Shown piece by piece: positions 4,469 through 14,465 of a stretch of DNA of 20,367 bases. Below the pieces are notes generated by a model. The model saw nothing but the letters and a program-made list of their open reading frames with translations, was not told the DNA's origin and searched no databases. The position numbers and the translations under genes are program-made. Numbering within the stretch: position 1 is the stretch's first letter; every line of letters starts with the position of its first letter. Source of the DNA: a virus; the IMG/VR virus record IMGVR_UViG_3300024264_000200, positions 1 to 20,367 of that record, one strand, 5' to 3'.

Positions 4469-5731
4469 CTAATCTAAGTTCGCTGCTTCAATAGGTAAGT
4501 CCTCGAAGCGTGCTATCTGGGGTTTAAATGCTACTGTAGACCTAGGGCAGCTCGCTGCACCTTCCCTACGTAACTTGTTCTTTGGTAGACCTAAGTATCT
4601 ATAGCCTTCATAAGACGGCTCATTCAAAGCTCCTATCATTAGCTGGAAGTCACATGCTCCCTGCTTACCTGTCTTACTATCCTTTAGCATACCCAGGGAC
4701 GGGAATGAAAGGTTGTCTCCCTCATTACTTATCTGTGATGTAGCTAGGCCCACAGCATCATACTTGACACCAATCTCCCTGGCCCAGGAGTACATCTCTT
4801 CTAGTGCTAGGTCAGTCCTAGCTTCACTTTTAAATCCCCTTATCTTATCTATCATATCATAAACTATTATAGCTGGGTCGTTAGCACGTATTAAGTTCTC
4901 AACTGCATACGTATCTTGACCATGTATATCCACAATCCTAATCTTGTAGGGGTCATCTGACTTGATAGCTTTCTTGTAAGCTTCCATTGGGTTAGGTAAG
5001 TTACGTATCTGTGACACCTGCATACCTAACGCAGCTTGTACTAGTCTCAGGAATATTCTATCTCCTCTTCCTTCATTGTTTAACCATAGGATAGTTTTAT
5101 CCTCAGGTATTTGTGTTACTAAGTGCGTTAGCTCTGACGCTAGGAAAGTAGTCTTACCCTTGTCAGGTCTACCCGCTATAATACCGAAGTCACCTGGACG
5201 TAAGCCACGCTGTGATTTACGTAGGCTCTCAAGCCTCCAATGATACCCAGAGGTTTCTTTACTATCCTCTAGTAACTCATTCAGGTCAGGCTTTAGATAA
5301 TCCAAGGACTTTATTTCACAGTCCCTCTCGAACTCATCTGATACACCTCGCAGCTCTGCATGTAGGTTAGCCACGTCACCCATATCCCACTTGTCAATAA
5401 GGTTAGCTATATCTGTACCCATACGCAGCTCTAACAAGGAACGCATGACTCCAGACTTCTCTTCTTCTGACACGTCATTAACTATATGAGATATGATACC
5501 TTCATAAGCAGTCCGTGTCTCCTCAGCCATGTCAGGGTTGTTAGCTCTGAATATAGTAAGCAGCTTCTGAGCATCTACGCTCTTAGCCTCAGGACAGTTC
5601 TTAAAGTATGTCTCATAGGACTTAAGTATCTGTATAGTCTGAGGGTCTAAGGCTTTGTTAGGTATCCTACCTTTAATCCTAAAGAACTCTCCGCGATACT
5701 TAAGCATCTGTAGCAATGTTAAGTCTATCAT
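4469..5731 (-). CDS. DnaB/RecA-type replicative DNA helicase
   Basis: This 420-residue protein unwinds DNA ahead of the polymerase. The C-terminal RecA-like domain starts near residue 165. It has Walker A GRPDKGKTT (187-195), the Asp of Walker B in IIVYD (288-292), a downstream TSQIS segment (331-335) like the DnaB glutamine-containing motif, and a basic KNKLRRE stretch (384-390) near the arginine-finger region. The N-terminal 160 residues are helical and unlike a primase, so the helicase is not fused to primase as in T7 gp4; primase is the separate gene at 9284-10042. GGAG lies six bases before the ATG. The stop is followed within ten bases by the phosphoesterase ATG, whose ribosome site overlaps this gene's end. 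Confidence 0.93.
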   Translation of the reverse strand: MIDLTLLQMLKYRGEFFRIKGRIPNKALDPQTIQILKSYETYFKNCPEAKSVDAQKLLTIFRANNPDMAEETRTAYEGIISHIVNDVSEEEKSGVMRSLLELRMGTDIANLIDKWDMGDVANLHAELRGVSDEFERDCEIKSLDYLKPDLNELLEDSKETSGYHWRLESLRKSQRGLRPGDFGIIAGRPDKGKTTFLASELTHLVTQIPEDKTILWLNNEGRGDRIFLRLVQAALGMQVSQIRNLPNPMEAYKKAIKSDDPYKIRIVDIHGQDTYAVENLIRANDPAIIVYDMIDKIRGFKSEARTDLALEEMYSWAREIGVKYDAVGLATSQISNEGDNLSFPSLGMLKDSKTGKQGACDFQLMIGALNEPSYEGYRYLGLPKNKLRREGAASCPRSTVAFKPQIARFEDLPIEAANLD

Positions 5732-5734
5732 AAT

Positions 5735-6244
5735 TTACTCCGTTAATACAGACCGCATGACACATTCTACAGCATGCCTTAGGTCGTTTAAGTCTCCGTT
5801 GTTATGTATTACTATATCGTGGTCCCCAGGCCCAATGTCAAGCCAAGGCTCTAAATTTTCTTCACCTAACCTTCCTGTAGCATCTACCCAGATGGTTAAA
5901 TCAAACAATTCCTTTACCTTTTCGAACTCAGACCGTCTACGTATACCTACACGCAAGTCTCCACCTGTTAGGCACTCAATAGTAAGCTTATCAGGACCAA
6001 AGTTTCTCACGTACTCGTACCACCACTCTCTACGCTTAACTCTATCCAGATAACACATCATTATCTGGTCTTCTAAGCAGCCATAGCCATAGTAATTCTT
6101 TGGTAACGCATGCAGCACGATATCTCTGGCTACAATCATAGAAGCATCTTTCTTTCTAAAGTTATAGCTTGTTAAGATATCTGCAACAGCATCCTTTCCA
6201 TGCCTAGCGTAACCATTAATCATTATTTTCATTCTATCATCCAT
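5735..6244 (-). CDS. Deoxynucleoside monophosphate kinase-like P-loop protein
   Basis: This is a 169-residue P-loop kinase. The nucleotide-binding loop GYARHGKDA is at residues 11-19, and an arginine-rich lid-like segment GIRRRSEFE follows near residues 100-108. An IWVDA strand is near 118. The arrangement resembles T4 gp1, which phosphorylates dNMPs to dNDPs. With NrdAB immediately upstream, the product fits dNTP supply. The start at 6244 overlaps the last eight bases of nrdB and has GGGAG seven bases upstream; Met5 and Met8 are weaker alternatives. Substrate specificity cannot be read from the sequence, so dNMP kinase is a family-level inference. Confidence 0.82.
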   Translation of the reverse strand: MDDRMKIMINGYARHGKDAVADILTSYNFRKKDASMIVARDIVLHALPKNYYGYGCLEDQIMMCYLDRVKRREWWYEYVRNFGPDKLTIECLTGGDLRVGIRRRSEFEKVKELFDLTIWVDATGRLGEENLEPWLDIGPGDHDIVIHNNGDLNDLRHAVECVMRSVLTE

Positions 6245-7199
6245 TTACATTCTCCCAATCCCAGTCACCTGACATACCAGCAGTAGAATATTCCGTCACA
6301 CGTTTCTCAAAGAAATTATCATGTGATGCTCCATTCAGTATCCACTCTAGCCAAGGCAAGGGGTTGTCTTTCACTTTAAAGTTAGGTTTCATTCCTAGTT
6401 GCAGCAGCCTCCTATCTGCTATGTGTCTTATGTACTGCTTAACATCCTTTTCAGTTAGTCCTTCCATGTCTAGCCCGTTAAAGGCTAACTCAATAAACTT
6501 ATCCTCCAGCGACACCACGTCCCTAGCTATTTGATACACTTTAGACTTCAGCTCATCTGTTACAATCTTAGGATGCTCTGAACAGAACTCCCTGAACAAT
6601 TTTGCATTGCCTTGTACGTGCAAATTCTCATCTCGTATTGACCACTCAACAATAGTACCCATACCCTTCATTTTACCAAAGCGTTGGAAGTTAAGTAGCA
6701 TCACAAAGGACGCGAACACAGACAGGCCCTCATTGAACACAGACTTAGCTAATGCAAGGGCAGTACCTTGAAAAGTATTACTAGTCTTGTCACTCATGAA
6801 TGCTATCTTGTCAGCCATCTCAGTATACTCAAGGAACTTATGAAAGTCCTCATCTGGTAGACCTAACGTATCATTCAGTAGAGCGTAGGCCCTCTGGTGG
6901 ATAGCTTCCCTAGCTGCGAATGAGGATAACATATTCCTAGCCTCATTATTCTTGAACACAGGGATAAGCATTTCATGATAGTTCTGTCCTACCTGTACAT
7001 CAGCCTGTGTAAACATCCGCAGCACCTGCGTGATAAAAGTTTTCTCTTCCTGGGTCAGCTTAGTCTTCCAGTCTTGAATGTCCTCAGATAATTCTGCCTC
7101 ATCCTCAATCCAGTGTACCTCTTCATGTTTTTTTGATAGCTCTACTGCCCAAGGGTACTTGAAAGGCTTGTAAGCTTTACTGTAGTCTAATAATGTCAT
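6237..7199 (-). CDS. nrdB: Ribonucleotide reductase class I small (radical) subunit
   Basis: This 320-residue protein generates the tyrosyl radical that NrdA uses to reduce ribonucleotides. All expected diiron ligands can be placed: D67 (FTQADV), E98 and H101 (REAIH), E157 (NEG), E191 and H194 (DENLH). The radical tyrosine is Y105, seven residues after E98, as in E. coli Y122. Spacing between ligands matches E. coli NrdB except for a shorter loop before E157. The retained tyrosine argues for a tyrosyl-radical cofactor rather than the tyrosine-free subclasses. The ATG has TGGAGAA upstream, and an AT-rich repeat (7221-7260) lies just before that. It is followed by the overlapping kinase gene. 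Confidence 0.97.
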   Translation of the reverse strand: MTLLDYSKAYKPFKYPWAVELSKKHEEVHWIEDEAELSEDIQDWKTKLTQEEKTFITQVLRMFTQADVQVGQNYHEMLIPVFKNNEARNMLSSFAAREAIHQRAYALLNDTLGLPDEDFHKFLEYTEMADKIAFMSDKTSNTFQGTALALAKSVFNEGLSVFASFVMLLNFQRFGKMKGMGTIVEWSIRDENLHVQGNAKLFREFCSEHPKIVTDELKSKVYQIARDVVSLEDKFIELAFNGLDMEGLTEKDVKQYIRHIADRRLLQLGMKPNFKVKDNPLPWLEWILNGASHDNFFEKRVTEYSTAGMSGDWDWENVNG

Positions 7200-7220
7200 G
7201 TTTTCTCCATTTTTGGCTTA

Positions 7221-7260
7221 AAAAATTTTGTTATATTTTTGTGAATGAGTGCAGACGTAT
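7221..7260 (-). promoter_or_regulatory. AT-rich leader repeat D upstream of nrdB
   Basis: On the minus strand this reads TCTGCACTCATTCAC followed by an A-rich run. It shares the CTCATTCA core and A-tract with repeat E before nrdA, and it aligns with copies A, B and C in the early region. It fills the 60-base gap between nrdA and nrdB, ending about 22 bases before the nrdB ATG. It is a candidate promoter or translation-leader element. A weak -35-like TTCACA is present, but there is no good -10 match. Confidence 0.4.
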
Positions 7261-9287
7261 CATCCTTCACAGGCTAGGCATTCTTCAGTCTCTATAGGCG
7301 CAGCATTGTCTAGATGTTTCATCATGTCCTCGTATCCTCCGATATATTGTCCTTGTAGGTAAACCTGTGGGACTGTATTAACACTCCTACCTGTTACCTC
7401 CTTAGCAGTCTTGCCCATATCAGTTAGCGATATATATTCAAAAGGTATACCTCTAAGGGATAACTCTTCTTTAGCTAACTCACACCACGGGCAGTCACTC
7501 TTACCATATATAATGCTTCTTGTATCACTTTGCAAGGCTACCCTCTCAACTTTCTCAGATACATTCTCTGCTCTGGATGTAGACTCTGTGCGTAGATAGT
7601 ACAATCCCTTGAGACCACTCTTCCAAGCTTTTAGATGCGTCTTACTCACGTAGCTCTTACTAGCACCAGATGGAAAGAACAGGTTAACAGATTGGCCCTG
7701 ACATATATAAGGCTGTCTATCAGATGCGTGCTTAATTACCCAGTTCTGGTTAAGCTCATCTGCTGTTTTGAATACAGCTTTCTCACCCTCTTTTAGGAAA
7801 GGTAGATGTTGTACAGAACCTTTGTTAGTTATGATTGAAGTCCATGTTGCATCATTGTTTTCTCCACGCTTATCCAGAACCTTACTAAGGTGTTTATTCT
7901 TTACCAAGAAAGAACCAGCCCGTGTTCTATGCGTATACGCATTAGCCTTGAGAGGCTCAATAGACGGGGAAGTAGAAAGTATTATACCTGATGAAGCGTT
8001 AGGGGCTATCGCTAGTAGGTGGGAGTTACGTCTACCCGTACCCTTACCATCTAAGTACTCGCCGCGCTCTTCTGCAAGCTTCCTTGTCTGTTGCAAGGCC
8101 CTTGCTTTTATTGTCATAAAGACAGCCTTGTTTATATCTCTAGCCGCCTCACTCTCCCAAGGTACACCACTCTTTTGTAAGAGGCTGTGGAATCCCATAG
8201 CCCCTAGTCCAAGAGAGCGCTCTTGTTTAGCTGAAAAGACTGCCTTGCTCAGTGCAGGAGGTGCTTGGTTTATGAAGTAGGTCAGAATGTTATCTAGCAT
8301 AGTAATTAAATCCTCTACTATAGTCGTATCTTTCCACTCATCATAGAACTCTAAGTTAAGTGAGGATAAGCAACATACAGCAGTTCTATCTTTACTGGTA
8401 GGTAAGTGTATCTCATTGCATAGGTTGGAACCGTGTATCTTTAATCCCTTATCCTTGAGGGCCTTAGGCATAGCATCATTGGCTGTATCTATGAAGTTCA
8501 GATACGGCTCGCCTGTCCTGAAGCGTACCTCCATTATGCGCTCCCATACCTTACGTGCCTTCAAGGTTTCTTTTACACTATTGTCCTTAGGGTCTCGCAA
8601 CTCATAGTCTTTATCAGCTACCACTGCTTCCATGAACTCATTAGTTACATTGAGGGCGTTATGTATATTCAAAGCCTTGCGCTGCACGTCACCTGTAGGG
8701 ATACGAATGTTTAGGAACTCCATTAAGTCTGGATGATGGACTGACATATAAGCAGCATAGGAACCCTTGCGAGTTTTACCCTGCCTGTAGGCTATCATGT
8801 CAGCATCTACAGTATGTAGGAATGGAATCGGGCCAGGGGCTATATCGGACACAGTTCTAACATTATCCCAATGTCCACCTACGCCACCACCTAACACACT
8901 TAGCCAACGTAGCTCAGTACTATGTTCTATTAATCCCTCTACCGTATCTGGTACGTAAGTAAGAAAGCAGGAGATAGGTAAGCCTTTAGACTTAGGGGCC
9001 TTATCTTTACAGAAAGGATTTACTGGCGCGTTGGATAGGACAGGACTTGAGAACATAAACCATTTTTTACTTGCGTACTCGTATAGTCTTTTAGCCAGAG
9101 CCCTAGTCTCTGCGTTGTCATAGGATGCTATGTTTGTATTAGGGAATGGCCTTGACCATGCCTCTGCCGCCCTTGCGTACCCTTCCTGTGGGGAGGTCTC
9201 ACCTTCTATGAGATAAAAGTCTTTAAGCATACCTATGGCGTACTCTGTCAGTAGCTTATCCCTTTTTTTATTTATTCTTATATTCAT
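7260..9287 (-). CDS. nrdA: Ribonucleotide reductase large subunit with internal glutaredoxin domain
   Basis: This 675-residue catalytic subunit reduces NDPs to dNDPs. Active-site residues are visible: redox Cys107 (PISCF) and Cys305 (AVCCLSS), N288-C290-E292 (NLCNE) for the thiyl-radical site, and the Y563-Y564 radical-transfer pair. The N-terminus starts directly in the catalytic fold, so the roughly 90-residue ATP-cone that gives dATP shut-off in E. coli NrdA is absent. Residues 590-660 are a glutaredoxin domain with CPWC (599-602) and the TVP cis-proline loop (638-640). The last residues then carry C670-x-x-C673, the position of the mobile reductant tail. The domain therefore sits between the catalytic core and the tail. 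GGAG precedes the ATG, which overlaps the primase stop by four bases. Confidence 0.97.
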   Translation of the reverse strand: MNIRINKKRDKLLTEYAIGMLKDFYLIEGETSPQEGYARAAEAWSRPFPNTNIASYDNAETRALAKRLYEYASKKWFMFSSPVLSNAPVNPFCKDKAPKSKGLPISCFLTYVPDTVEGLIEHSTELRWLSVLGGGVGGHWDNVRTVSDIAPGPIPFLHTVDADMIAYRQGKTRKGSYAAYMSVHHPDLMEFLNIRIPTGDVQRKALNIHNALNVTNEFMEAVVADKDYELRDPKDNSVKETLKARKVWERIMEVRFRTGEPYLNFIDTANDAMPKALKDKGLKIHGSNLCNEIHLPTSKDRTAVCCLSSLNLEFYDEWKDTTIVEDLITMLDNILTYFINQAPPALSKAVFSAKQERSLGLGAMGFHSLLQKSGVPWESEAARDINKAVFMTIKARALQQTRKLAEERGEYLDGKGTGRRNSHLLAIAPNASSGIILSTSPSIEPLKANAYTHRTRAGSFLVKNKHLSKVLDKRGENNDATWTSIITNKGSVQHLPFLKEGEKAVFKTADELNQNWVIKHASDRQPYICQGQSVNLFFPSGASKSYVSKTHLKAWKSGLKGLYYLRTESTSRAENVSEKVERVALQSDTRSIIYGKSDCPWCELAKEELSLRGIPFEYISLTDMGKTAKEVTGRSVNTVPQVYLQGQYIGGYEDMMKHLDNAAPIETEECLACEG

Positions 9288-10377: not shown

Positions 10378-10621
10378 AGTTCTCTCCAGTTTTAATAATA
10401 GGTTCTATACGGTCTGTGACCATGTTAAATTCTAAGGGATGACCTGCGGCAACATTCAGTGCATTTATAATTGACTGCGTATCATTATTAAATTCTAAAC
10501 AATCAATCTTAGGGTCAGTCATATACTTTGATATTGTTTCAGCCTCCTTCATAGTTGCTACGTGGATACCGTGGTGGGTATCCTCAGTATCGAAGTCTAA
10601 TACTCTGTAAATTTTAGTCAT
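10370..10621 (-). CDS. Small protein of unknown function (start corrected)
   Basis: This 83-residue protein begins MTKIYRVLDFDTEDTHHG. A longer frame exists from a TTG at 10642, but AAGGAG lies seven bases before the ATG at 10621 and overlaps the previous stop. I therefore take 10621 as the start. The protein is acidic and soluble, without Cys pairs or membrane segments, and I do not recognise it. It belongs to the run of small genes preceding primase. Confidence 0.8.
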   Translation of the reverse strand: MTKIYRVLDFDTEDTHHGIHVATMKEAETISKYMTDPKIDCLEFNNDTQSIINALNVAAGHPLEFNMVTDRIEPIIKTGENYA

Positions 10622-10631
10622 AGTTTTCTCC

Positions 10632-11601: not shown

Positions 11602-11937
11602 CTATATATTATCAGCATAGTCAGACCATAAAAACTCTGTGTTATAATCTCGCATGTTCATTTCTATGTCGAATTCAGTTACTTCACAGCACCAGATTGT
11701 ATCGCCCTCTTCTGTTAGCTCCTGCCAATAGTCCGCGTCGTAGTCTTTGCCGTTAAACTTGAATGCTATAACGCAATCCTCGAAGGGTAATCCTGGATTA
11801 CCTTGTATTTCTTTTCGAAGTAGCTCAAGAGTCATGTCACACACTATGGACAGGTCAGTGTGGCTAAATAGTTCGTTATGCGTACCCGTTAGCAGTTGTT
11901 CTACTGTTTTGTTAATTGCTTCTTTTAGTTTAGTCAT
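11602..11937 (-). CDS. Acidic early-region protein of unknown function
   Basis: This 111-residue protein begins MTKLKEAINKTVEQLLTG. The N-terminal half is helical; the C-terminal half is very acidic with many aromatic residues (DYDADYW, DTIWCCEVTEFD). AAGGA lies eight bases before the ATG. The gene overlaps the stop of the 35-residue membrane peptide by eight bases. The acidic, aromatic C-terminus could be DNA-mimic-like, but this is weak. No family is recognised. Confidence 0.8.
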   Translation of the reverse strand: MTKLKEAINKTVEQLLTGTHNELFSHTDLSIVCDMTLELLRKEIQGNPGLPFEDCVIAFKFNGKDYDADYWQELTEEGDTIWCCEVTEFDIEMNMRDYNTEFLWSDYADNI

Positions 11938-12037
11938 GGCTTTCTTCCTTTTTAATGTAGTAGTTATAGAATACTTTGGTAAGATAGCAGGTAAATACTA
12001 TACCATACGCTATTTCTGATAATAGTTGTGCTGACAT
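11930..12037 (-). CDS. 35-residue single-pass membrane peptide
   Basis: This short frame encodes MSAQLLSEIAYGIVFTCYL and continues into a basic tail, KKEESHD. Residues 5-27 are hydrophobic and aromatic, and the tail carries lysines. GGAGAG lies eight bases before the ATG, and the end overlaps the next ATG by eight bases. AT-rich repeat A is directly upstream, so it may be the first gene of a transcription unit. Function unknown; membrane location is inferred. Confidence 0.65.
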   Translation of the reverse strand: MSAQLLSEIAYGIVFTCYLTKVFYNYYIKKEESHD

Positions 12038-12060
12038 ATACAATTCTCTCCATTGTTGTT

Positions 12061-12096
12061 AATATTTTTTATTGAAATTATGTAAATGAATACAGG
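12061..12096 (-). promoter_or_regulatory. AT-rich leader repeat A
   Basis: On the minus strand this reads CCTGTATTCATTTACATAAT followed by TTCAATAAAAAAT. It matches repeats B (13891-13927) and C (14125-14161) over about 30 bases. It ends 24 bases before the ATG at 12037. A -35-like TTTACA with a 17-base spacer precedes a poor -10 (ATTAAC). It is a candidate promoter or other transcription or translation signal. Confidence 0.5.
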
Positions 12097-12104
12097 CGTA
12101 CTCA

Positions 12105-12214
12105 TACCCTACCTAGTACTATAGCCAGACCTATAGTATCTTGTCACATTACTCTTGCGCTCTCGCTTCATGGATTGCAGACAGTCCATAGCGGTTATAG
12201 TACAAGATAGGGTA
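12105..12214. other. Long imperfect inverted repeat with alternative pairings, probable structured RNA
   Basis: Arms 105-126 and 193-214 (offsets from 12000) pair over 22 positions: 19 Watson-Crick, one GU and two mismatches, reading the plus strand. A perfect 8-bp hairpin TACTATAG/CTATAGTA (12117-12124 with 12131-12138) competes with the outer stem. TATCTTGT at 12137-12144 can pair perfectly with ACAAGATA at 12202-12209, which is a third option. A further 8-bp hairpin ATGGATTG/CAGTCCAT, with one GU on the plus strand, is at 12170-12189. The block lies between two genes and just upstream of repeat A. No T-run follows on either strand. It is not a recognised RNA family. Confidence 0.55.
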
Positions 12215-12223
12215 GTTGTTGTT

Positions 12224-12856
12224 TTAACAGTTTTTAAATACTACGCTATCAACTAGATTGTAGAAGGTATCTGATTTGATGCAGTAAGTCCAACCTAATG
12301 AGTTAGGCGGGAAGTCCCAATCTTCTATCCTTTGTAGTCTACTATAAGAAGAGATAACGTCCCCCGTCCCGTTTTCGATTAGTTCTATTCCAGGCGCTCT
12401 GGTGGTGACAAATACACCGTAGTTGTTGTTTACTACTTCAAGTAGTAGGTAGCTGTGTTGCTCTCTTACATAACCTAGCTCTTGCACAAATGTGTAAAAA
12501 TGTTTATCACTGACAGCGTAAGCGAATTCCTTTCTACCGTCATAGCACCCCTCTAGTATTACTATTTCATCTGACCTGTACTGGCTAAGGAAGTGATGCA
12601 AGAAGCGTTTATTTGCTGATATAGATTTTTCAGTTGCTTCTAATGTATTCTCCCCATGTTCAAACCAGTCAGCACCATCAATTGAAAATATAACTACGTT
12701 AGTTAGGCTATGCTTATAAAAGTTTTCAAGAGATGGGAAGTTACTTTTATTGTATGGTGTATTATTTACTTGCACGATTGTTTTAGTCATTTGTTTACGT
12801 CTTTCCTCATATTGTGATAGGTTTATTGTTTCTAGTTTTATGTTATTATTAGTCAT
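12224..12856 (-). CDS. Unrecognised early-region protein (start corrected)
   Basis: This 210-residue protein begins MTNNNIKLETINLSQYEE. The frame stays open further upstream to 12943, but that stretch overlaps a better small gene. GGAG lies seven bases before the ATG at 12856, so I use that start; Met at 12790 (MTKTIVQVNN) is an alternative. The protein is soluble with no clear motif: FSIDGADWFEHGE, EIVILEGCYDG and a tryptophan-containing C-terminus are visible. It overlaps the preceding 44-residue gene by eight bases. The inverted repeat at 12105-12214 begins ten bases after its stop. Confidence 0.78.
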   Translation of the reverse strand: MTNNNIKLETINLSQYEERRKQMTKTIVQVNNTPYNKSNFPSLENFYKHSLTNVVIFSIDGADWFEHGENTLEATEKSISANKRFLHHFLSQYRSDEIVILEGCYDGRKEFAYAVSDKHFYTFVQELGYVREQHSYLLLEVVNNNYGVFVTTRAPGIELIENGTGDVISSYSRLQRIEDWDFPPNSLGWTYCIKSDTFYNLVDSVVFKNC

Positions 12857-12983
12857 TGTCACTCTCCATGATTTGATTGACTGGTGTATTGTATAGCTCA
12901 GACACGTCAGGCATGTCAAGCCAGTCGTCACTATATAATTCATTTAATTGTTTTTCTGATATTAGTAATGTTGCGTTGCTCAT
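12849..12983 (-). CDS. 44-residue acidic small protein
   Basis: This short frame encodes MSNATLLISEKQLNELYSDD and ends NQIMESDND. It is acidic and probably helical. The ATG overlaps the previous stop as ATGA, and TGGAGG lies upstream within the end of the coiled-coil gene. Its 3' end contains the ribosome site and start of the 210-residue gene. This phase fits the local gene packing better than the N-terminal extension of the 12224 frame. Function unknown. Confidence 0.72.
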   Translation of the reverse strand: MSNATLLISEKQLNELYSDDWLDMPDVSELYNTPVNQIMESDND

Positions 12984-13890: not shown

Positions 13891-13927
13891 GTTATTTTTT
13901 ACTAAAATTACTTGATTGAATTCAGGG
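13891..13927 (-). promoter_or_regulatory. AT-rich leader repeat B
   Basis: On the minus strand this reads CCCTGAATTCAATCAAGTAA followed by TTTTAGTAAAAAATAAC. It shares GAATTCAATCA, then TAATTT and AAAAAAT, with repeat C. It sits immediately before the 83-residue gene and just after the stop of the 27-residue peptide gene. Candidate promoter or leader element. Confidence 0.5.
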
Positions 13928-13930
13928 TTA

Positions 13931-14014
13931 TCACCCAAATATATGTACTACTAAACAATTTAGAATTGTAAAAGGTATCATAAAACTTAGTATAATAATA
14001 TCATCTGTACTCAT
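13931..14014 (-). CDS. 27-residue hydrophobic peptide
   Basis: This short frame encodes MSTDDIIILSFMIPFTILNC and then LVVHIFG. Residues 6-26 could span a membrane. GGAG lies seven bases before the ATG, with TAATGGAGAATGCA upstream. A 6-bp hairpin GAAGCT/AGCTTC at 14034-14048 precedes the ribosome site. If real, it is the first gene after the long non-coding stretch. The tiny size limits confidence. Confidence 0.5.
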   Translation of the reverse strand: MSTDDIIILSFMIPFTILNCLVVHIFG

Positions 14015-14124: not shown

Positions 14125-14161
14125 ATATAATTTTTTATTGAAATTATGTGATTGAATTCGT
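14125..14161 (-). promoter_or_regulatory. AT-rich leader repeat C
   Basis: On the minus strand this reads GAATTCAATCACATAATTTC and then AATAAAAAATTATATA. It is the closest partner of repeats A and B. Here a -10-like TATATA follows a 17-base spacer from ATCACA, so a sigma70-like reading is possible. It lies upstream of the plus-strand terminator-like hairpin and about 110 bases before the 27-residue gene. Confidence 0.5.
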
Positions 14162-14189
14162 AAGTTTCAACCACATAACTCAAACGGTA

Positions 14190-14465
14190 TTTGCAAACCC
14201 TGTTTTAATCCTTCAAGAGAATGTCCCGTTAAAGTTTTTGGCCTTAGTCCTTAGACTGCTGTCGCGTGGCTATATTAAACTTTGAAACAACGCCGCAACC
14301 GCTAGAGGTTGCGCCGCTCTTGAAACCTAGGACGCAACTACCACAGTTGGCCCCCAGAATTCAGACACTTCAAAACCTCCGAGAAGTGCGGCCCTAATTT
14401 TATGCTCTTGGTCTAAATCCTTAATAACGTGTTGAGCGTCTTAAGTTATGGTCCGACCCGTAGTA
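14190..14465. ncRNA. Candidate structured RNA or packaging-site segment, GC-richer than surroundings
   Basis: This segment is visibly GC-richer than its flanks and broken by stops in all frames. Many short stems occur in series: AAAGTTT/AAACTTT enclosing AGTC/GACT (about 14234-14284), GCAACC/GGTTGC (14293-14310), CAACT/AGTTG (about 14335-14350), CACTTC/GAAGTG (about 14368-14390), and CTTAA-ACG/CGT-TTAAG (about 14420-14446). No tRNA T-loop or other signature I know is present. Strand is undetermined. Stems of this length can arise by chance, so an RNA gene is only a possibility. Confidence 0.3.

Follow-up and report, generated by a model that had tools for sequence, protein, structure and literature searches.

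The window analysed here is a stretch of 20,367 bases of DNA from the IMG/VR virus record IMGVR_UViG_3300024264_000200, and it encodes, among other proteins, a family A DNA polymerase, a DnaB-type helicase, a primase, ribonucleotide reductase subunits and a T7-type terminase. Because of this protein set, and because a near-complete relative, g4, encodes an RNA polymerase of the T7 group (L023:14536-16998), the window is, judging from gene content, a fragment of a T7-like (Autographivirus-type) phage. All of its recognisable or annotatable genes lie on the minus strand, so that the element considered here follows the ORF 12943-12224 and precedes the small ORF 12037-11930. Along this strand, the stop codon of a 239-aa ORF is followed by 9 nt, a long rod-shaped hairpin, a conserved leader of 52 nt and the next ORF, as listed below.

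12224-12943, minus strand: upstream ORF of 239 aa, without a family match, its stop codon 9 nt before the hairpin
12105-12214, minus strand: whole rod hairpin element, predicted part of an early polycistronic mRNA, conserved in the relatives L002-L005
12192-12214, minus strand: 5' arm of the outer stem, UACCCUAUCUUGUACUAUAACCG
12128-12191, minus strand: apical domain, with the rod helices CUAUGG/CUAUAG and CUGUC-GCA/UGU-GAC-AAG
12157-12164, minus strand: variable loop of 8 nt, with a pairwise difference of 0.445 (0.05-0.13 in the rest of the element)
12105-12127, minus strand: 3' arm of the outer stem, UGGCUAUAGUACUAGGUAGGGUA, holding the invariant U of a U-U mismatch that lies one turn of the helix above the base
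12053-12104, minus strand: conserved leader, with a 6-bp mini-hairpin GAGUACGCCUGUAUUC (12103-12088) and an A/U-rich stretch reaching to the ribosome-binding site
11930-12037, minus strand: small downstream ORF of 35 aa, MSAQLLSEIAYGIVF...
7210-7263, minus strand: further copy of the leader, lying between the genes for the large and the small subunit of ribonucleotide reductase (before nrdB), without a rod hairpin

Searches with the 239-aa upstream protein returned no match. A sequence-only reading of the window had placed the structured block ahead of a repeat A and of a membrane peptide gene; along the minus strand this order is correct, the repeat lying within the leader and the peptide being the 35-aa ORF, which is absent in L002 and L003, where the next gene follows directly. 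The leader is the most conserved stretch of the locus, with 4 of 52 columns varying and a pairwise difference of 3.8%. Its second copy likewise occurs in three relatives and in a further contig, L061, and the two copies of about 55 nt in the window (7263-7210 and 12104-12053, minus strand) share the mini-hairpin GAGUACGYCUGYAYUC and an A-rich stretch. There is also an A/T-rich repeat of 48 nt with three copies on the minus strand (13894-13941, 14130-14177 and 12064-12111), two of them shortly before early ORFs; these repeats are possible host-type promoters or leaders.

Other features of these genomes were recorded alongside. The contig of g4 (G004, 41957 bases) has an exact end overlap of 144 bp, giving a circular map of about 41.8 kb on which the early region comes directly after the lysis genes. 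A motif with the consensus TTARTGCTTCTCTMTAGAGA is probably the promoter used by the RNA polymerase of the phage itself. It occurs in the window at 798-775, 14771-14748 and 14988-14965 (minus strand), where one copy follows the polymerase gene and the other two lie close to the presumed genome end; in g4 it is also found after the RNA polymerase gene. A strong hairpin of 50 nt at 15057-15008 (minus strand), kept in three relatives, follows the last gene of the lysis region about 20 nt before a phage promoter, and is possibly linked to the genome end. An unusually G+C-rich, strongly folding non-coding stretch (14268-14417, minus strand; about -49 kcal/mol per 150 nt) separates the lysis genes of the window from its first early genes, and at a similar position g4 carries a G+C-rich stretch of different sequence (L025, about 580-870); neither matched Rfam at the gathering score. 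Within g4, a hammerhead-ribozyme-like sequence (L025:862-915, contig positions 40862-40915) scores 20.7 bits against Rfam RF00008, which is below the gathering score, with an E-value of 0.037 in a search of 241 bases. It has the core CUGAUGAG...ACGAAAC, a GUC site and a stem II of just 2 bp, and lies a few bases upstream of the ribosome-binding site of an early ORF; the core pattern was not found in the window.

On the minus strand, RNAalifold folds the five available sequences of the element (the window and four IMG/VR relatives, L002, L003, L004 and L005, compared at the same genomic place) into one long imperfect hairpin, the outer stem of which comprises about 21 pairs (9-10 pairs, an invariant U-U mismatch, then 11-12 pairs). 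In each of the five phages, the pairs of this stem have a mean probability of 0.88-0.94. The outer stem of 22 positions that had been noticed from the sequence at 12105-12214 is present, as is an inner hairpin of 8 pairs with one G-U on the plus strand (AUGGAUUG/CAGUCCAU). In the window, the plus-strand fold has a stability z-score of -5.0 and is matched by 0 of 200 shuffles; for the minus-strand fold the z-score is -3.2, and 2 of 200 shuffles are as stable. A strict rod scan, which replaced a scan with a lenient mismatch penalty that did not discriminate, places the element first among the rod hairpins of the window and of each of the four relatives, with scores of 37-45.5. Among 20 shuffles, the highest score was 37.0 for the window, 37.5 for the relative g2 (in which the element scores 37.0) and 33-36 for the other relatives; the element thus equals or exceeds its best shuffle in the window and three relatives, and is slightly under it in the fourth.

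It had further been proposed that an alternative perfect helix of 8 bp (UAUCUUGU/ACAAGAUA), mutually exclusive with the outer stem and sharing its bases, gives the block two exclusive folds. The helix exists and is perfect in the window, but in all four relatives it carries a C-A on the minus strand (a G-U on the plus strand); a structure forced to contain it is about 10-25 kcal/mol less stable than the best fold, and on both strands of the five sequences its pairs have a mean probability of 0.0. The part of the proposal that stands is local: a hairpin AUGGACUG/CAAUCCAU competes with the apical rod helices (12128-12191, minus strand), the rod extension and the local hairpin lying within about 3 kcal/mol of each other. 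Bistability is thus confined to the apical part.

The element is 94% identical to the window in L003, 94% in L002, 91% in L004 and 87% in L005, whereas at the fourfold-degenerate sites of the primase gene, at a distance of 2 kb, identity is 73% in L003, 69% in L002, 60% in L004 and 61% in L005. In the gene that comes next downstream (ORF 11602), such sites show 41-44% identity in the two more distant relatives. Core replication genes farther away retain 78-90% identity at such sites, and the contrast is therefore local. Within the element, pairwise difference amounts to 12.6% in the 5' arm, 7.0% in the 3' arm, 6.7% and 4.8% in the two apical halves and 44.5% in the 8-nt loop, which is the sole freely evolving part.

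The pattern of substitutions favours an RNA of the minus strand, i.e., in the sense of the genes. Wobble-preserving changes occur on this strand at four pairs (13-110, 14-109, 24-99 and 33-87; variants A-U/G-U, C-G/U-G and, twice, U-A/U-G), against one pair on the plus strand, where several of these pairs turn into A-C or C-A mismatches. The single G-U that had been taken as a slight hint for a plus-strand RNA is thereby outweighed, and the hint reversed. On the minus strand, pair 27-96 has undergone a compensatory change from C-G to U-A, and pair 43-75 is G-U, G-A or U-A among the five sequences. Across the alignment 96.1% of cells are paired and two pairs have changed on both sides; the covariation score is reached by 34 of 500 shuffles, and with five related sequences covariation support can be called modest to moderate. 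Stability points the same way: in each of the four relatives the minus-strand fold is better than the plus-strand fold by 2-10 kcal/mol, and in the window the two strands are equal. Had the relatives lost the pairing, the idea of a structured RNA in this short intergenic region would have fallen; instead, the pairing is kept, most stem substitutions preserve the helices and the folds are more stable than shuffles. The hairpin is real and conserved.

A search of IMG/VR for copies of the element recovered L002-L005 only, and no sequence homologue was found in 50,697 phage records, where one 40-nt match (E 0.6) is due to chance. A covariance model of the element (R1) scores the five copies at 132-138 bits and, in a search of 30-odd phage loci, found just these copies and their reverse complements. 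No copy was found in the contig of the further relative L061, and a pattern match in L010 was rejected as a chance hit inside a gene. Rfam 15 gave no match at or above the gathering score, and ARAGORN found neither a cloverleaf nor a tmRNA, in agreement with the initial impression that the block does not look like a tRNA. No intrinsic terminator, i.e., a G+C-rich stem with an immediate U run, is present at the element on the minus strand, the 3' flank being UGAGUACGCC. Hidden coding was likewise rejected: an ORF MDCLQSMKRERKSNVTRYYRSGYSTR is open in the window, L003 and L005, and by eye it is interrupted by a stop in L002 and by a frameshift in L004.

Hairpins of comparable shape were surveyed in distant contigs, obtained through a primase-profile scan, and in annotated relatives from a phage collection. 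In 18 annotated Autographiviridae records, 45 rods score above the shuffle median, and 20 of them are intergenic, where 12% would be expected (binomial p 5e-8, with homologous rods such as the ParMal1/ParKuw1 pairs counted separately and with survey criteria that were set after the first examples had been seen). The strong intergenic rods measure 50-127 nt and typically end 2-74 nt before the next CDS, usually just before the ribosome-binding site of an early gene. In many of the genomes examined, contigs included, the strongest rods lie between genes and ahead of early ones, as in the following.

L037, 3180-3268: intergenic rod before an early gene
ParMal1, 8374-8489 and 7730-7780 (locus coordinates): intergenic rods
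ParKuw1, 7363-7478, 10527-10626 and 6706-6769 (locus coordinates): intergenic rods
Atu_ph03, 822-927 (locus coordinates): intergenic rod
Alteromonas R8W, 7868-7947 (locus coordinates): intergenic rod
Lullwater, 1423-1549 and 6368-6452 (locus coordinates): intergenic rods
RHph_X3_9, 796-918 and 5729-5828 (locus coordinates): intergenic rods
Percy, 1214-1334 (locus coordinates): intergenic rod
phiKMV, 1682-1731 (locus coordinates): intergenic rod
L031:8371-8492, L032:7360-7481, L038:4150-4270, L039:4111-4231 and L044:3318-3433: structured RNA of the Paracoccus type (model R2)

The phages JG068, P14 and Vibrio phage 526E57-1 show no such intergenic tendency. The hairpin of L037 lies in the equivalent area of a genome with 50% primase identity and has a similar shape, with just 8 nt of shared apical sequence. 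Several rods have 1x1 mismatches about 10 and about 13 bp from the base, and many share a succession of 8-9 bp, a 1x1 mismatch, 2 bp, a second 1x1 mismatch and an upper stem; one extra mismatch in the outer stem of L003 gives the window-type stem exactly this double-1x1 pattern. Stated as 6-10 bp, 1x1, 2-3 bp, 1x1, the pattern is found in 7 of 89 intergenic rods against 7 of 588 rods in CDS (p 9e-4) and in 14 of 1207 shuffles. In the Paracoccus-type RNA (108-116 nt), both sides have changed at 13 pairs and the apex is conserved in sequence; among the loci searched, the model of this RNA had no match outside its own group.

It is textbook knowledge that RNase III processes the early mRNA of T7, which carries the five sites R0.3, R0.5, R1, R1.1 and R1.3. 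By analogy, the best explanation of the element, which we hold with about even confidence, is that the hairpin serves in the processing of the early polycistronic mRNA and holds a putative cleavage site. Host RNase III would bind the outer stem of about 21 pairs and cut near the mismatch located one helical turn above the stem base. The cut would leave the downstream mRNA with a defined 5' end, consisting of the mini-hairpin and the A-rich leader, and would protect or separate the upstream message. The sequence conservation of the apex seems to exceed what RNase III alone would demand, and the apical domain may thus have a second, sequence-specific role, e.g., in protein binding or in the tuning of cleavage.

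Since cutting by RNase III would not by itself account for the conserved apex, the main rival makes the apex the working part: a protein-binding or antitermination element (put/nut-like) acting on host RNA polymerase, or a released small RNA, any RNase III cutting being secondary. The greater conservation of the apical halves (4.8% and 6.7%) than of the 5' arm (12.6%), around a free 8-nt loop, speaks for it, as do the apical segments of the Paracoccus-type RNA (CACCGCCCUACC, UAAG and CCACCUG...CAGCAGGGCAG), which are conserved in sequence in three of four sequences. Yet the lineages share no apical sequence (the longest strings common to unrelated rods are 7-8 nt), some rods in equivalent places have just 49-64 nt and plain loops, and no known family matches, which leaves this reading rather doubtful. 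A bistable attenuator or riboswitch-like switch controlling the downstream gene, as the sequence-only reading had suggested from its exclusive folds, would draw on the two near-isoenergetic apical folds, within about 3 kcal/mol, and on the local hairpin, which would be expected to form first in minus-strand transcription. It is an improbable reading, and the element is probably not a two-state switch: the outer stem stays closed in all five phages, the exclusive helix, imperfect in the relatives and costly, has zero probability, neither a U-tract nor a terminator-like site accompanies the element, and neither fold includes the leader or the ribosome-binding site.

Inverted repeats keep their pairing in DNA too, and the element could be a palindrome serving as a replication origin, a primase or recombination site or a hairpin for genome-end processing. 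It is situated upstream of replication genes and followed by an A/T-rich stretch, and the contigs g3 and g4 both start about 520 nt before it, but at least in g4 a circular assembly with the 144-bp end overlap is the simpler reason for the contig start. The G-U-tolerant, one-strand changes at four pairs are those expected of RNA, and analogous hairpins recur several times per genome before ribosome-binding sites; we give the DNA reading little credence. A promoter region is the least credible reading, and we regard it as very improbable. Its basis is a minus-strand ACTATAGG together with a sigma-70-like GTGACA-18-TATAGT inside the element. However, ACTATAGG-like sites are no commoner than in shuffles, i.e., at chance frequency; the phage's own polymerase apparently uses the different motif TTARTGCTTCTCTMTAGAGA, which is absent from the element; and in L004 and L005 the sigma-70-like boxes have degenerated to GAGACA and TGTAGT.

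The conservation of the apex, joined to the survey, also leads to a broader and tentative proposal, that large early-junction rods (80-127 nt) with a lineage-specific conserved apex form an undescribed class of phage structured RNA across many Autographiviridae, combining an RNase III-type stem with a second apical function. That function could be the binding of a phage or host protein, antitermination or the release of a small RNA, and the element of the window would be the version of one lineage. If the rods are the counterpart of the T7 sites, the processing strategy extends to T7 relatives of Paracoccus, Caulobacter, Agrobacterium, Rhizobium and Alteromonas, and the processing sites of those relatives have gained a conserved extra domain. 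Rods of this kind are easily spotted in a genome sequence and can be tested in cultured phages such as ParMal1 and Lullwater, which makes the partitioning of early transcripts directly testable.

When folded, the five T7 sites are hairpins of about 50 nt just before the next gene, and in R0.3 and R1 the stem is irregular about 10 nt from its base, below an upper stem of about 9 bp. The rod scan ranks true T7 sites 2nd, 4th and 6th in the T7 early region, not above shuffles, and it thus detects strong hairpins rather than RNase III sites specifically. Like the T7 sites, the element is an irregular hairpin of the sense strand at a junction of early genes, shortly upstream of the next ribosome-binding site on a presumably common transcript and without a terminator, and its double-stranded RNA extends over about two helical turns, with an irregularity about one turn above the base and a second helical segment after it. 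It differs from them in size (110 nt, with a long conserved apical domain of 64 nt, against a compact hairpin of about 50-60 nt with a small terminal loop, a tetraloop), in the irregularity itself (a 1x1 mismatch against a larger asymmetric loop) and in number (one strong gene-junction rod in the early region of the window against several, five in T7), and it shares no sequence with them. We propose that the element works like a T7 site and do not claim membership in the class, because its size and site number depart from that class, cleavage is putative and the collections searched hold no sequence homologue beyond the five phages.

Another comparable structure is the hairpin of phiKMV (NC_005045 1682-1731), a rod with a 1x1 mismatch after 9 bp that ends 15 nt before the first early gene (ORF1); it differs in having 50 nt and a small loop, and we know of no cleavage at this site. 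The rods of the Paracoccus group (ParMal1, ParKuw1, L038, L039 and L044), large hairpins of which we know no earlier description, differ from the element in that they share no sequence similarity with it, have two 1x1 mismatches instead of one and occur several times per genome. They resemble it in an outer stem that measures about 20 bp and is interrupted by 1x1 mismatches, in their place at an early-gene junction, in a length of 108-116 nt and in a structured, conserved apex, and in them covariation is strong.
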